Shown here: positions 17,149 to 26,442 of the stretch, one piece after another
How positions within the stretch are numbered: position 1 is the stretch's first letter
Layout: each line of letters starts with the position of its first letter
From: Synergistaceae bacterium
Lineage (GTDB): Bacteria; Synergistota; Synergistia; Synergistales; Aminobacteriaceae
Direction: 5' to 3'
Length of the DNA stretch: 44,473 nt
Assembly (NCBI GenBank): GCA_017448795.1
Contig: JAFSKV010000007.1
Location: 1-44,473, forward strand
Notes under the pieces: model-generated
What the model was told of the DNA's origin: nothing
Seen by the model: the letters and a program-made list of their open reading frames with translations, nothing else
Databases searched by the model: none
Program-made: the position numbers and the translations under genes

Positions 17149-17184
17149 AAAAAAAAACTCCCCTAGCACACGGCCGGGGGAGTC
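17149..17184 (-). terminator. Rho-independent terminator of the binding-protein gene
   Basis: Minus strand: GACTCCCC and GGGGAGT pair across a 14-nt C/G-rich loop, followed by nine T. It lies 19 nt after the stop of the 17203-17979 gene. It is one of several related ACTCCCC...GGGGGAGT hairpins in the window. Confidence 0.85.
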
Positions 17185-17202: not shown

Positions 17203-17979
17203 CTATTTCCCGTCAGCAAGCACTAACACAACTTCCTGATTTGCGTCGTAAGGCTTCGTGAAATCCATCGTGGCGACTCTGTCTTCCGTAACAGTCAACG
17301 CCGAACATATCATGTCAATTTTCCCGGTCTCCAGAGCTTCAGGCAGTGCATCAAACCTGTAATCCGCAATCACAAGCTCCCTGTCCATTCTTCTGGCGAT
17401 CTCAGCGCAAAGCTCAATGTCAATCCCGGCGAATCCTGAAGGTGTCCTCAGCTCATAAGGAGGGAAAGAGGCCGCGCAGCCTACCCAGAGTTTCCCGCCC
17501 TTCGCGCCGACGTTCATATCGATTGACGAGGGGTCAGGGTCATCCTTAAGGTACTTGTCCATGATTGCCGCAAGTGTCTTGTCAGCAACAACAGCATCAA
17601 GTATCTTGTCTACTTCATCGCGCAGGGGATTCCCCTTCCTGAATGCTATTGCGTAATACTCAATGTCAACAGGCTCTGCGAGGATGCGGAACTCTGTGCC
17701 TGTTTCAGCGAAGTAACGCGCCGGTGTTTCGTCCATGACTGCTGCGTCAACGTCCCTGCTTCTGAGGGCGGCAATGATTTCGCCTATTGTCCCGAAAGAA
17801 ATCACCTGTCCTGAATCACCGCTGACTAATGCCTGTGCTAGGTATTCCGAGACTGAGCCGGACATTACGCCCACTTTTGCTGACTTGAGGGAATTAACGG
17901 AAGAGACTCCTGCGAATGACGCGCCCGACAAGAGCATGATGATGCATAATGCCGCGGAAAGTTTTACTGCTGACTTCAT
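17203..17979 (-). CDS. Amino-acid-type (family 3) extracellular solute-binding protein with swapped half-domains
   Basis: 258-aa secreted binding protein. Residues 1-23 are a signal peptide (MKSAVKLSAALCIIMLLSGA, then SFA) without a lipobox Cys. In the usual family order the first half starts with VGxxxxFPPYEF and carries GFDxDL, then the hinge leads to KVGVQxGT and YYGIAxRKG. Here the halves are reversed. Residues about 30-145 contain SLKSAKVGVMSGSVSEYLAQ, ALRSRDVDAAVMDETPARYF, IEYYAIAFRKGNPLRDEVDK and AAIMDKYL, the normal second half. Residues about 160-258 contain LWVGCAASFPPYELRTPSGF, AGIDIELCAEIARRMDREL, ETGKIDMICSALTVTEDRVA and MDFTKPYDANQEVVLVL, the normal first half. The gene is complete, with AAGGAGG before its ATG. 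No permease or ATPase genes are adjacent, so it may serve a system encoded elsewhere. Confidence 0.9.
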   Translation of the reverse strand: MKSAVKLSAALCIIMLLSGASFAGVSSVNSLKSAKVGVMSGSVSEYLAQALVSGDSGQVISFGTIGEIIAALRSRDVDAAVMDETPARYFAETGTEFRILAEPVDIEYYAIAFRKGNPLRDEVDKILDAVVADKTLAAIMDKYLKDDPDPSSIDMNVGAKGGKLWVGCAASFPPYELRTPSGFAGIDIELCAEIARRMDRELVIADYRFDALPEALETGKIDMICSALTVTEDRVATMDFTKPYDANQEVVLVLADGK

Positions 17980-18000
17980 GATTCATTCCTCCTTTGTATG

Positions 18001-18444
18001 TTATCTGAAGACCTCGCGGAAAAAGTCCCTTAATGCTTCCTGCTCGCGTCTTTTTTTCTCGCGGCGTTCGTATTCGAGCCTCTCCCGTTCGTAGCGATCC
18101 CGGTCATACTGCCTGCGTTCGTATTCGATTCTTTCGCGTTCGAGCTGACGGAGTTCCCTGCGGTCTCGTTCACGCTGTTCAAATTCGCGGCGTTCACGTT
18201 CTCTTTGCTCACGTTCCCGGCGTTCCCTGTCCCAGCGTATCTGATCCTGCCTCTGCATTTCCCTGCGCTCAATGTTGCGGCGTGCCTCTTGGAACCTTGG
18301 GCGTTCGTCGCGGCGCATCGCGGGGGGCGGCGGAGGAGGGGGCGGCAAACGTCTTGCAGGAGCGGCGGAGATTTCAGCGGTGAAGACTCCTAACGTTCCC
18401 AGAAGCACGGATGCTGACAAGGCTGTAGCTTTCCTGATGTTCAC
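18001..18444 (-). CDS. Secreted Arg/Glu-rich charged-helix protein, unknown
   Basis: 147 aa starting with GTG at 18444 (GGGAGA 9 nt upstream). Residues 1-28 are a signal peptide (RKATALSASVLLGTLGVFTA, then EISAA). A run of eight prolines follows near 34-41, then about 100 residues almost entirely R, E, Q, D, Y and K in short alternations (RERREREQRERERREFEQRE). Such sequences often form a single stable ER/K alpha helix. The tail is LRDFFREVFR. I do not recognise a family, and database hits would be dominated by composition. It lies 21 nt upstream of the binding-protein gene on the same strand, so the two may be co-transcribed. Confidence 0.75.
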   Translation of the reverse strand: MNIRKATALSASVLLGTLGVFTAEISAAPARRLPPPPPPPPAMRRDERPRFQEARRNIERREMQRQDQIRWDRERREREQRERERREFEQRERDRRELRQLERERIEYERRQYDRDRYERERLEYERREKKRREQEALRDFFREVFR

Positions 18445-18584: not shown

Positions 18585-19274
18585 CTAAAACTCCTTATGC
18601 TTCCTGTAAGATGATACCCGCCTGCTGTAGTTTGTCCTCCCGAAAATAATCCTGTCAGTGAACGACACAGCATCAAGTATTCCCCCCAAGTCCTGCCGGA
18701 TGATATTAGGTGTCGGGTAAGGCTCAACACTGACCCACGTCCGGCAACCCAGCTCATGAAGGCTACGTAGGGCATCAATCCTTTCTTTGTATGGCGCGGA
18801 AAACGGCTCAATCTCCTTCCTGAATCCCTCATCAAGAGATACAAGGGTGATTCCGTATTCGTTCTTTGGCGACAATTCAGACAGCCCGGCGGGTAGGACT
18901 CCTTTTGTGAGGACAGTGCATCTTATTCCGGCAGCGTTGAGCTTGCGTATTGCGGCCATGCTCATTGCGGCTATCTCGTCATACTCGTACATGAATGGAT
19001 CTGTAGTGAAGCAAAGGTGAACGGACTCTATTTTGTCCCGGAGGCGCGGTATCTCCTTGTCGAGAAGCTCAAGTGTGTTGGAGACAAGGTAAGGCCTGAG
19101 CCATTCCTCATAGGATTTCACCTGCCCGAAGCGTTTCTTCATCATGAACGCATAGCAGGGGTAAAGGCATCCGTGAGCGCATCCCTGTACGTGGTTCATC
19201 GTGTAATTTCCGTACTCAACGCCTGTAACATATAGCATTGATTTCCGTGTGATGTAGCCTGCTACGTGCTTCAT
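18585..19274 (-). CDS. Radical SAM-like protein, CxxxCxxxC type, C-terminus lost by frameshift
   Basis: 229 aa as encoded. The N-terminal part has VQGCAHGCLYPCYAFMMKKR with Cys32, Cys36 and Cys40. The spacing is C-x3-C-x3-C, one residue longer than the radical SAM C-x3-C-x2-C. Later parts fit a spore-photolyase-like or 'mobile pair' radical SAM barrel: VHLCFTTDPFMYEYDEIAAM, CTVLTKGVLPAGL, GITLVSLDEGFRKEIEPFSA. After the stop, another frame continues with coding-like sequence (DDKARETEKFCAEHSIPCHI, then KKGTARP) to a stop at 18502. A missing T in the run at 18587-18590 would restore a 257-aa protein. Its start overlaps the upstream partner gene by 4 nt (ATGA). It is probably a recent pseudogene. 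Function is unknown; repair or nucleic-acid modification is possible. Confidence 0.75.
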   Translation of the reverse strand: MKHVAGYITRKSMLYVTGVEYGNYTMNHVQGCAHGCLYPCYAFMMKKRFGQVKSYEEWLRPYLVSNTLELLDKEIPRLRDKIESVHLCFTTDPFMYEYDEIAAMSMAAIRKLNAAGIRCTVLTKGVLPAGLSELSPKNEYGITLVSLDEGFRKEIEPFSAPYKERIDALRSLHELGCRTWVSVEPYPTPNIIRQDLGGILDAVSFTDRIIFGRTNYSRRVSSYRKHKEF

Positions 19275-19570
19275 TCCCGCGCCTCGTCATCAGTGAAGCT
19301 CACTGCCACGCGTGATAAGCTGTCGCCGTAAATCTCCCTGAGCCTGCCTTTGAGGTTCTTCATGAATCCTTCTGACGGGAAAACCGGGTGAAGGTCAAGC
19401 AAGCCCGATATTTCAGCTACCCGGACATTCTTCCTGCCTCTGAATTTTCCGTGAACATAGTGCGCGATGTCATCAACAGTGTAGCAATATTCATCAGCGG
19501 AATCATTGTCATCCGGGAAAATAAACACTCTCTGCCCGGCCTCACCTTTCAGCGCAGTGAATGATGTCAT
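19271..19570 (-). pseudogene. TcmP-like gene, C-terminal fragment (or small separate gene)
   Basis: 99-aa frame containing VFIFPDDNDSADEYCYTVDD and a winged-helix-like DIAHYVHGKFRGRKNVRVAE. Its ATG at 19570 lies inside the previous frame and lacks a ribosome site. The stop overlaps the start of the radical SAM-like gene (ATGA). The simplest reading is the tail of the TcmP-like protein after a second frameshift. A separate small gene is possible. Confidence 0.55.
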
Positions 19571-19844
19571 ATAGAAGCGCGTTGTTCACGTTGAAGAACG
19601 GGAATGAGGCGATGAAGTAATCCCGGTCATTCTTCACCCGGCGCGAGCGTATAATTCCCTCAATACAAGCCTCGTACTTTTTTCTGTCGCTTCCCCATTC
19701 AGCCAGCTCTACAATTTCTTTGCCGTAAGTGGACTCGTATTTTGCCACAGCTTCGGGAGATTTTGCCGCTCCTGCCGCCCTTATCGAATCTGAGAGCATG
19801 TGATTAATGATGACTTCCCCCCAGTGATTCAGGAAAGGCATCAA
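19542..19844 (-). pseudogene. TcmP-like gene, middle fragment
   Basis: Second open piece, from an ATG at 19844 (MMPFLNHWGEVIINHMLSDS) to a stop at 19542. Family-like sequence continues upstream of that ATG to about 19885 in this frame (FYDPYEATIDWDAL), so the ATG is internal. It has no ribosome site. Confidence 0.6.
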
Positions 19845-20302
19845 AGCATCCCAGTCAATAGTTGCCTCGTAAGGATCGTAGAATGTTTGCCTCTGACTCC
19901 GCAGACTTCATGACTCAATCTGCGCAGAAGAACATTGCAGTCCTCATTAAGGAAGCTGACGTGATAGTTCCCGCTGCCTTCCGGGATAAGGGCCTTGAGG
20001 TGGGCGATTTTCCAGGCTGATTTGTCGTTGAATATGACGCTGACGTTCTTTCTTGGGTATCTTGAGGCGGCTTCCCTAAGCAGTCTGTTTATGCGGACAG
20101 GAGTCCCGTATACTGTTTCACCCGTTTCACGATGCTTGTATTCCCCGCTGTTGCTCATGCAGTCTATGAAGATTAACTCCCCGCATGAAGAGTTGTTGAG
20201 CATGATTTCCTTCCAGTCCCTCACATAGCCTTCCACAAGCTCAAATTTCTTCACGGTATGAGGGCTTACTTCGTCGATAATTCCGTCTGTTTCGCGGCTC
20301 AT
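19841..20302 (-). pseudogene. TcmP-like gene, N-terminal fragment
   Basis: First open piece of the broken gene. It starts MSRETDGIIDEVSPHTVKKF with a strong ribosome site. It reads family-like sequence up to about 19885, then runs about 15 unrelated residues to a stop at 19841. If translated, it would give a 153-aa truncated product. Confidence 0.65.
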
Positions 20303-20380
20303 TCTTGCCCCTCCTTGTAATGGGATGAATTGAGATTCTAGCACAACGGTATTCCGTCATACGCGGCGGGCTTTGCGGCA

Positions 20381-24908: not shown

Positions 24909-25274
24909 TTAACGCTCAAGTCCGAAGAACGGGTATTTTTCCCTCGTGAACTGCATCGTCTGATACTTCACAGTCCATGTTGCCCACCGCGAATAACCAG
25001 ACTTGAAATCAAAATCAAGGCCGCTCTTTCCCGCAACAGGGTAATTCGAGAACCTTCTGTGGCAGTTGCTCTTGTTCTCGGCTGTAACGCTCACATAGCA
25101 GAAAGCAGCGTCAGACCCTCCCGCTGAAGTGTAGGCGGTGTAGGACGGGTTCACATTGGCCATGTTGTGGTCTGAAGTTCCCCAGTAACGCCTGCCTGCA
25201 TCCTGGTAGCTCTGTACACCGTTGAGAGTCTCGCTCTTCCCTGCCTGGATGTCCTCAGTAACAGCAGTGCTCAC
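24909..25274 (-). pseudogene. MACPF-like gene, C-terminal fragment
   Basis: Open piece overlapping the previous one by 20 nt, reading STAVTEDIQAGKSETLNGVQ, RRYWGTSDHNMANVNPSYTA and SRWATWTVKYQTMQFTREKY. It is the C-terminal domain of the same protein, reached by a one-base shift near 25284. It has no start signal of its own. Confidence 0.65.
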
Positions 25275-26442
25275 GTAGAACTCCCTGTAACCTGTAGAAG
25301 TTCGGATCTGATGTGATCGTTGCGATTATGTTCTGGTAACGGTCATCATAACTGTTGCGCACTGACGCGTCCATCTTCGTGTTGTCCAGTCCGGCTATGA
25401 CCTGATTATATGCTCCCAGCGTTATCAGCGACCTGTTGAAACTCTGAATCAGAACTGTAGTGTCCTGCGCAAGCGGTATAGTCCCGTCATCGCCGTCCGT
25501 GTTCATTTTTGCCAGAACAGGAGCTAAGAGGCTGTAACGCTTCAGTACCACACTGACAGTAGCAAACTGTGCGGGAGACTGTTCCGACAACGCAGAACGG
25601 AATCTCATAAGCTCAGCTATCACATCACCCACCGCCTCAACGCTGTTCTTGCCTTTCGTGGGAGTTATTGACTTCGGTTTGGGGTCGGAAGCACTTGAAC
25701 CGCTGGTTCTGATCTCAATTGACACTGAGGCCTTATACTTGTTGAGAATTTCTTTCGTCTCATTCGCCAACTGTGCAGCTGCCTGCGCTCCCTGTTCGTC
25801 AAGAGACTGATACTTTGCACCCAGCTTGGACTTGACCTCTTGAAGCTGCTCTGTCGTCTCTGTCGTGATTGAGATGTAAGCGTCGTAAGTCCCGCCGTAA
25901 ACATAGCCTGCCACAAAGTAATCACCGTAGGAATTTCGGAAGTTCGTCAACCCCCTGGCGAGCTGTTCATCTGCGCTCGCTGTGAGACTGTAGTCCGACA
26001 TGTTGAGAAGTCTGGGCGTTGTCTCCTGTTCATCGTAGTGAATTACGAGAGTTGTCGAGGTCAGGCCGTACTTGTAGCTGCTCATTGATGAGAGGCTGGC
26101 ATTCAGTCCGAAACCGCCCTTCGCGAATGAGCCGCCTACTGTGGTCTTTGAGAACTTCTCCTGTTCCTGCTGGGACGAAATGAAATCTGCCTTGTAGTTG
26201 GAGGAAACACTTTTTGTCTCAGGAACTGAAAGCCTGAAATCCTGCATTGCGTGGCCTAGTGCCTGATAGCCCGTTACACCGAAGAATCCGCTGCCCAAAG
26301 TGTAGGTGTTGTCATACTGGACTCCCTCCAAGGTTGAAGGTATTAGCGATCTGGTACTGTTGAGGTCATTTGTCGCCGCTGATGACACTTCTACATCTGC
26401 ACCGTCGCCTATAAGGTCATAGAGTCCTTTGTGTTCCTGCAT
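25255..26442 (-). pseudogene. MACPF-like core fragment (largest open piece)
   Basis: 395-aa open piece carrying the putative pore-forming domain. FSKTTVGGSFAKGGFGLNAS, then SSYKYGLTSTTLVIHYDEQE, fits the strand before the MACPF signature, and LTNFRNSYGDYFVAGYVYGG (near residues 165-184) stands at the signature position. A long amphipathic region follows, then MDASVRNSYDDRYQNIIATI. The last seven or so residues are out of frame because of an extra G; the true continuation is in the next piece (EFYVSTAVTEDIQAG). An automatic annotator would call this a complete gene, but it lacks its own signal peptide and ribosome site. Confidence 0.7.

Follow-up and report, generated by a model that had tools for sequence, protein, structure and literature searches.

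The window, by which we mean the whole 44,473-nucleotide stretch of Synergistaceae DNA that was analysed, encodes on its reverse strand a member of solute-binding protein (SBP) family 3 whose two halves, D1 and D2, are read in the order D2-D1 (Table 1). The open reading frame at 17203-17979 is complete, with an ATG start, 258 encoded residues, and a stop at 17203. Its ribosome-binding site, AAAGGAGG, sits inside the 21-nt gap that separates the gene from its upstream neighbor, which encodes a secreted, arginine- and glutamate-rich protein. The cleavage site of the signal peptide was placed by eye, at a position where the AlphaFold model has low pLDDT. Directly behind the stop codon, the segment 17140-17205 folds at -27 kcal/mol (z -4.46) with a T run behind it; a consensus terminator scan did not list the terminator at 17149..17183 on the minus strand. 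Among close orthologues, dN/dS was 0.05-0.14 for the gene as a whole and was low in each half, with looser constraint on linker residues 147-159 than on the D2 and D1 halves.

Table 1. Features of the window and of the related loci discussed in the text
Feature	Position	Strand	Basis or source
Permuted family 3 solute-binding protein gene, 258 aa	17203..17979	-	ORF and translation; Pfam; separate D1/D2 profiles
Signal peptide, residues 1-23 (MKSAVKLSAALCIIMLLSGASFA), without lipobox cysteine	17911..17979	-	Sequence reading
Ribosome-binding site of the SBP gene	17988..17995	-	Sequence reading
Intrinsic terminator directly 3' of the SBP stop codon	17149..17183	-	RNA fold, then T run
D2 half, residues 27-146: lobe 2 and C-terminal segment of lobe 1	17542..17901	-	phmmer, profiles, model, rotation
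Linker, residues 147-159, old C-terminus to old N-terminus	17503..17541	-	Profiles; selection analysis
D1 half, residues 160-256: N-terminal segment of lobe 1	17212..17502	-	Pfam, phmmer, profiles, rotation
Partner gene upstream of the SBP gene (21-nt gap), for a secreted 147-aa Arg/Glu-rich protein with 52% RKED	18001..18444	-
Arg/Glu-rich gene upstream of class A/B genes	L018, L022, L030, L036, L038, L039, L042, L044, L095, L100, L101, L117-L119, L121-L123
Array protein, 3249 aa, about 12 D2-D1 pairs	L107 3857-13606
Array protein, 2252 aa	L108 5167-11925
Array protein, 2015 aa	L109 2799-8846
Array protein, 1787 aa	L110 5569-10932
Array protein, 1842 aa	L111 4511-10039
Array protein, 1804 aa	L112 1257-6671
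Array protein, 1001 aa, three D2-D1 pairs	L124 1383-4388
Array protein, runs off contig	L021 5382-9829		The window's own genome (C83)
Lipoprotein-like permuted SBP of class X, sharing an operon with a permease and an ATPase	L127 2770-5453		Selenomonas ruminantium plasmid pSRC1

A truncated-tandem or frameshift origin of the gene was considered and ruled out by the upstream gene's own stop, by purifying selection, and by the family-wide inheritance of the architecture. Likewise, it is scarcely credible that the gene is a decayed fragment or an assembly artefact of a tandem SBP protein: tandem (D2-D1)n proteins are indeed present in the same genome and genus, but the signal peptide is intact, a ribosome site and a terminator belong to the gene itself, and the same selection and inheritance apply. 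The earlier note on this DNA had described a complete, single-length gene with its own signal peptide that was no piece of a tandem, without transporter genes beside it. All of this holds for the window gene, and the boundaries given there (residues 30-145 and 160-258) were correct within a few residues.

Order of the halves and predicted fold

Canonical members of SBP family 3 (PF00497; GlnH/GlnBP, HisJ, AncQR, and T. maritima ArgBP) have a sequence family, predicted lobe folds, secretion, and the conserved amino-acid-binding Arg and Asp in common with the window protein, at ~25-39% identity once the latter is reordered. They run D1-D2, however, whereas in the window protein D2 (27-146) precedes D1 (160-256), with new ends at the hinge and a linker joining the old ones, which makes it a permuted variant rather than a canonical PF00497 member. 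Separate D1 and D2 profiles read the halves in this order, and Pfam SBP_bac_3 matched in two separate stretches (99.7 bits, cut-off 26.4), the best of which placed residues 166-256 on positions 3-93 of the 132 in the profile. In a phmmer comparison with AncQR (4zv1), query residues 162-252 corresponded to residues 10-102 of the chain, and query residues 25-144 to residues 109-231.

As a control, the mature protein was aligned to 18 normal-order SBPs, both in its native order and with its halves in the usual order. As it stands, the protein aligned one half at a time. When the halves were rotated back, the local alignment score rose in 18/18 cases, from a mean of 155 to 217 (shuffles, 32-37), and most of the 18 alignments spanned the protein, at 25-39% identity. 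A gain in every comparison, far above the shuffles, means that the half order is swapped, far beyond chance. The results support the conclusion that the window gene's product is a family 3 (type II, amino-acid) SBP that has undergone natural circular permutation, a type of protein for which order-dependent annotation yields half-matches only.

Given a 42-sequence alignment of the lineage and no templates, AlphaFold2 predicted a single compact protein (mean pLDDT 89.5, pTM 0.82), which in this predicted model has the two-lobed type II binding fold of the family. The Foldseek and VIA-align match lists for the model were filled with SBPs. Sequential structure aligners are unable to show a permutation directly; the top VIA match of the whole-chain model was B. 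subtilis OpuAC (2b4l; Z 14.2, 208 residues, 4.0 Å), and ordinary family 3 SBPs came next (Z 11-12), at an identity of ~10-16% because such aligners must put lobe 2 of the model onto lobe 1. Taken alone, lobe 1 of the model was 41% identical to domain 1 of TmArgBP. In the model, the chain starts at the hinge, forms lobe 2 and then the C-terminal part of lobe 1, crosses the linker of ~13 residues, and ends with the N-terminal segment of lobe 1.

We consider this permuted fold very probable. A decidedly unlikely alternative is that the halves give no single monomeric site, and that D1 of one chain and D2 of another come together with the ordinary connection in a domain-swapped dimer. The linker is short, and TmArgBP, a relative, is reported to form swapped dimers; yet the model is a single compact chain, and the D2-D1-permease fusions described below carry one unit per chain, although both would still be compatible with a dimer.

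Natural permutation as such is already known among SBPs. The authors of CPSARST listed OpuAC in one circular-permutation family with E. coli ProX (1r9l) (PMC2395249). As in the window protein, the permutation of these glycine-betaine-binding proteins lies inside the type II SBP fold, but they belong to another sequence family and ligand class, and the OpuAC family was absent from the Pfam matches to the window protein up to E 1. TpMglB-2 (Tp0684) of Treponema pallidum, termed 'Type Ic', is a natural permuted SBP that binds its ligand and closes (PMC4990184). This protein, which has relatives in gut Gram-positives, has a type I sugar-binding fold in which part of one lobe has moved and the hinge is crossed a fourth time, whereas the window protein is cut at the lobe-lobe hinge. 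The type I (Peripla_BP) family did not match the window protein, its Pfam matches being SBP_bac_3 and relatives only. Among open-licence papers, no natural family 3 permutant was found.

Distribution, paralogues, and proposed function

A survey of 188 Synergistota genomes (63 genera) returned D2-D1 matches at E 1e-20 or better in 50, all within the family of the window and nearly all covering both halves in that order. The carriers comprised the 43 sampled genomes of the window's genus together with four other genera, and their record titles describe rumen and gut Synergistaceae MAGs. By the separate D1 and D2 profiles, stand-alone members in the carrier genomes (classes A-D) were D2-D1, and SBPs sampled from other Synergistota families were D1-D2. 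Plasmid matches in Treponema, Fusobacterium, and Enterococcus that covered both halves had the normal D1-D2 order. A single scan of genome contigs for the permuted order returned Synergistota only, and a search of plasmid records added one case from the Bacillota, in Selenomonas ruminantium.

Class A, to which the window gene belongs, and class B (C64) were found in the window's genus only; a cognate permease was absent at their 22 loci, many of which have flanks of only ~1.5 kb. Class C (C56 in the window's genome) directly adjoined a gene for a HisM/GlnP-type permease at 19/19 loci from four genera, followed by a GlnQ/HisP-type ATPase that was out of view in one short locus of the 19. Class D (C34) occurred in three genera, and none of its 12 loci had a cognate transporter gene nearby; in the window's genome, the class D gene stands directly after a run of cobalamin (cbi)-like biosynthesis genes (L024 661-7431). 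Classes A and B look as if they arose by duplication, in this genus only, of a permuted SBP linked to an importer. A more distant permuted SBP, class X, is present in several copies in the window's genome (C48, C56, and C65) and also on plasmid pSRC1 of S. ruminantium, with a permease and an ATPase. One class X ORF of 221 aa (L023 8120-8785), beside a class C operon, stops early inside the D1 half and is a copy in decay or the product of a sequence error.

The earlier note had read the halves of the window protein as swapped, and had named a structure prediction and a search for homologues in the same order as checks. The phmmer and rotation results, the compact two-lobed model (a prediction only), and the inheritance of the order in 50 genomes of one family bear this reading out. 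Its mention of similar proteins in gut Firmicutes was right at least once, in the single distant case from S. ruminantium.

In the predicted pocket, Asp83, Phe172, and Arg234 were invariant in 42/42 class A-D sequences, and Thr229 was present in 32/42. Asp83, Thr229, and Arg234 align with the Asp157, Thr70, and Arg75 positions of GlnBP, as expected of an amino-acid pocket; by this alignment, we take Asp83 to be the amino-group-binding position and Thr229 and Arg234 to be the carboxylate-binding positions. The position of GlnBP Asp10 is occupied by Ala169 in the window protein, is variable in class A/B, and is Glu in nearly all of class C/D, so that specificity has probably shifted. Judging from the alignment, the alanine may mean that the ligand has changed or that binding is weak.

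From the pocket residues and the importer-linked paralogues, we infer that the protein has an amino acid as its ligand and supplies an ABC importer. It would be exported to the periplasm and close in the manner of a Venus flytrap on an amino acid, with the carboxylate held by Arg234/Thr229 and the amino group by Asp83. The amino acid would then be passed to a HisM/HisP-type importer whose genes lie elsewhere, the most plausible candidates being the permease and ATPase that adjoin the related class C permuted SBPs. By analogy with LAO and HisJ, which use one common permease, we propose that the window SBP arose by duplication and serves a shared importer as an accessory receptor, a role to which we give about an even chance. 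Leaving aside the role of the partner, the explanation as a whole, i.e., a permuted SBP that serves as accessory receptor for a shared importer, appears moderately probable. The permease at every class C locus, nearly always with the ATPase in view, counts for an importer role, while the score of 0/34 loci of classes A, B, and D with a transporter gene beside them, many with flanks of ~1.5 kb only, counts against it. Synergistota ferment amino acids (PMC12366334), and an enlarged set of amino-acid receptors would be in keeping with this.

The Arg/Glu-rich gene preceded 19/21 class A/B genes, lying 1-53 nt upstream on the same strand and encoding proteins of 111-204 aa as called. Neither Pfam nor NCBIfam gave a match to the window copy; many copies have a common C-terminal motif like EAEIIGDILTEIIR or EALDDFFRDLFR. 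The SBP gene and this gene stay together while the surrounding genes vary, and one genome carries a duplicate of the complete pair. The Arg/Glu-rich protein probably works with the SBP in the periplasm, for example as a rod or tether, which is the weakest step of the proposed mechanism.

This pairing, in which the other neighbors vary, is also what the main rival explanation builds on, namely that the permuted SBP feeds no transporter and acts with its partner as a soluble sensor or scavenger, for instance by offering ligand to a chemoreceptor or kinase or to the cell envelope. The lack of an adjacent transporter gene at class A/B loci and the altered pocket residue Ala169 point the same way. 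However, the key amino-acid-binding residues Asp83 and Arg234 are still invariant, close paralogues are linked to an importer, and neither a receptor gene nor a kinase gene adjoins the window SBP; we regard the sensor or scavenger role as possible but rather unlikely.

Receptor arrays and the origin of the permutation

The lineage also encodes (D2-D1)n proteins in which a C-terminal permease domain follows the receptor units and whose genes lie next to one for an ATPase (Table 1). Each array protein carries 3 to about 12 permuted SBP units, the exact repeat numbers being provisional because most of these proteins come from draft assemblies. The permease domain was identified by Pfam in L113 and L124, and by similarity to a permease query in L107-L112 and L114. 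Two of these proteins, L114 (520 aa, from the window's genus) and L113 (513 aa, from another family of the order), are minimal fusions of one D2, one D1, and one permease. Since they have a single D2-D1 pair per chain, the unit must be permuted, unless swapping occurs between chains. The model of L113 had a pLDDT of 74.6 and a pTM of 0.50 overall, with the SBP part mostly confident. The ATPase beside this fusion (L113 5020-6339) is extended at its C-terminus by ~130 residues whose sequence resembles an anti-sigma-type HATPase domain, to which Pfam gave no name.

Fusions of two receptors with a permease are already known from GlnPQ, in which tandem family 3 receptors are fused to the permease and the ATPase is separate (PMC8025302). 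The interior D2-linker-D1 of GlnPQ corresponds to the permuted unit. GlnPQ has two units in normal order, however, whereas the arrays of this lineage have up to about 12 in the order D2-D1, and the window gene is unfused, its 258-aa chain having no Pfam match to the permease domain BPD_transp_1. No description of long permuted arrays on a permease was found within open-licence papers.

A tandem origin of the permuted unit is likely. Most likely, SBP genes would have been fused in tandem, after which the outer halves were lost; although the window gene is no fragment, the permuted tandem arrays in the same genus keep such an origin likely. The profile of the permuted family matched most PDB chains in two separate stretches. 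The exception was 6h30, the GlnPQ SBD1-SBD2 tandem, where a single stretch ran from D2 of SBD1 across the linker to D1 of SBD2, which is the appearance expected of an excised tandem interior. In a tree of same-order halves, the fusion units, class X, and class A-D each formed a supported group. With three order changes needed in the best tree and a single clade not rejected (p-AU 0.28), one to three permutation events are possible. The class A-D clade was not nested within the fusion units, so that the tree falls short of demonstrating a tandem origin.

Because a permuted unit would begin and end on the hinge side, D2-D1 units could be strung serially. We tentatively suggest, while thinking it doubtful, that the permutation is a selected design in this lineage, with units that can be strung up to about 12 per permease chain into a multi-receptor amino-acid importer of an undescribed kind, and with the stand-alone receptors and their Arg/Glu-rich partner as its mobile members. 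If this is true, a transporter dimer would have ~24 receptors. SBPs are textbook receptors and biosensor scaffolds, of which circular permutants have been made deliberately in the laboratory. Here, nature's permutant of an amino-acid SBP has been kept family-wide, multiplied, and linked to importers with one to about twelve receptors per chain. As normal and permuted importers occur within one genome, the effect of chain order on closure, permease docking, and receptor stringing is directly testable.

Elsewhere in the window, a 395-aa ORF at 25255-26442 has a weak above-threshold match to MACPF (perforin-like; 23.6 bits against 21.5). At 18585-20344, a radical SAM gene lies behind three short ORFs that overlap and differ in frame, the first of which resembles an intact 213-aa protein in L095, suggesting that a gene in this region may be frameshifted in the window.
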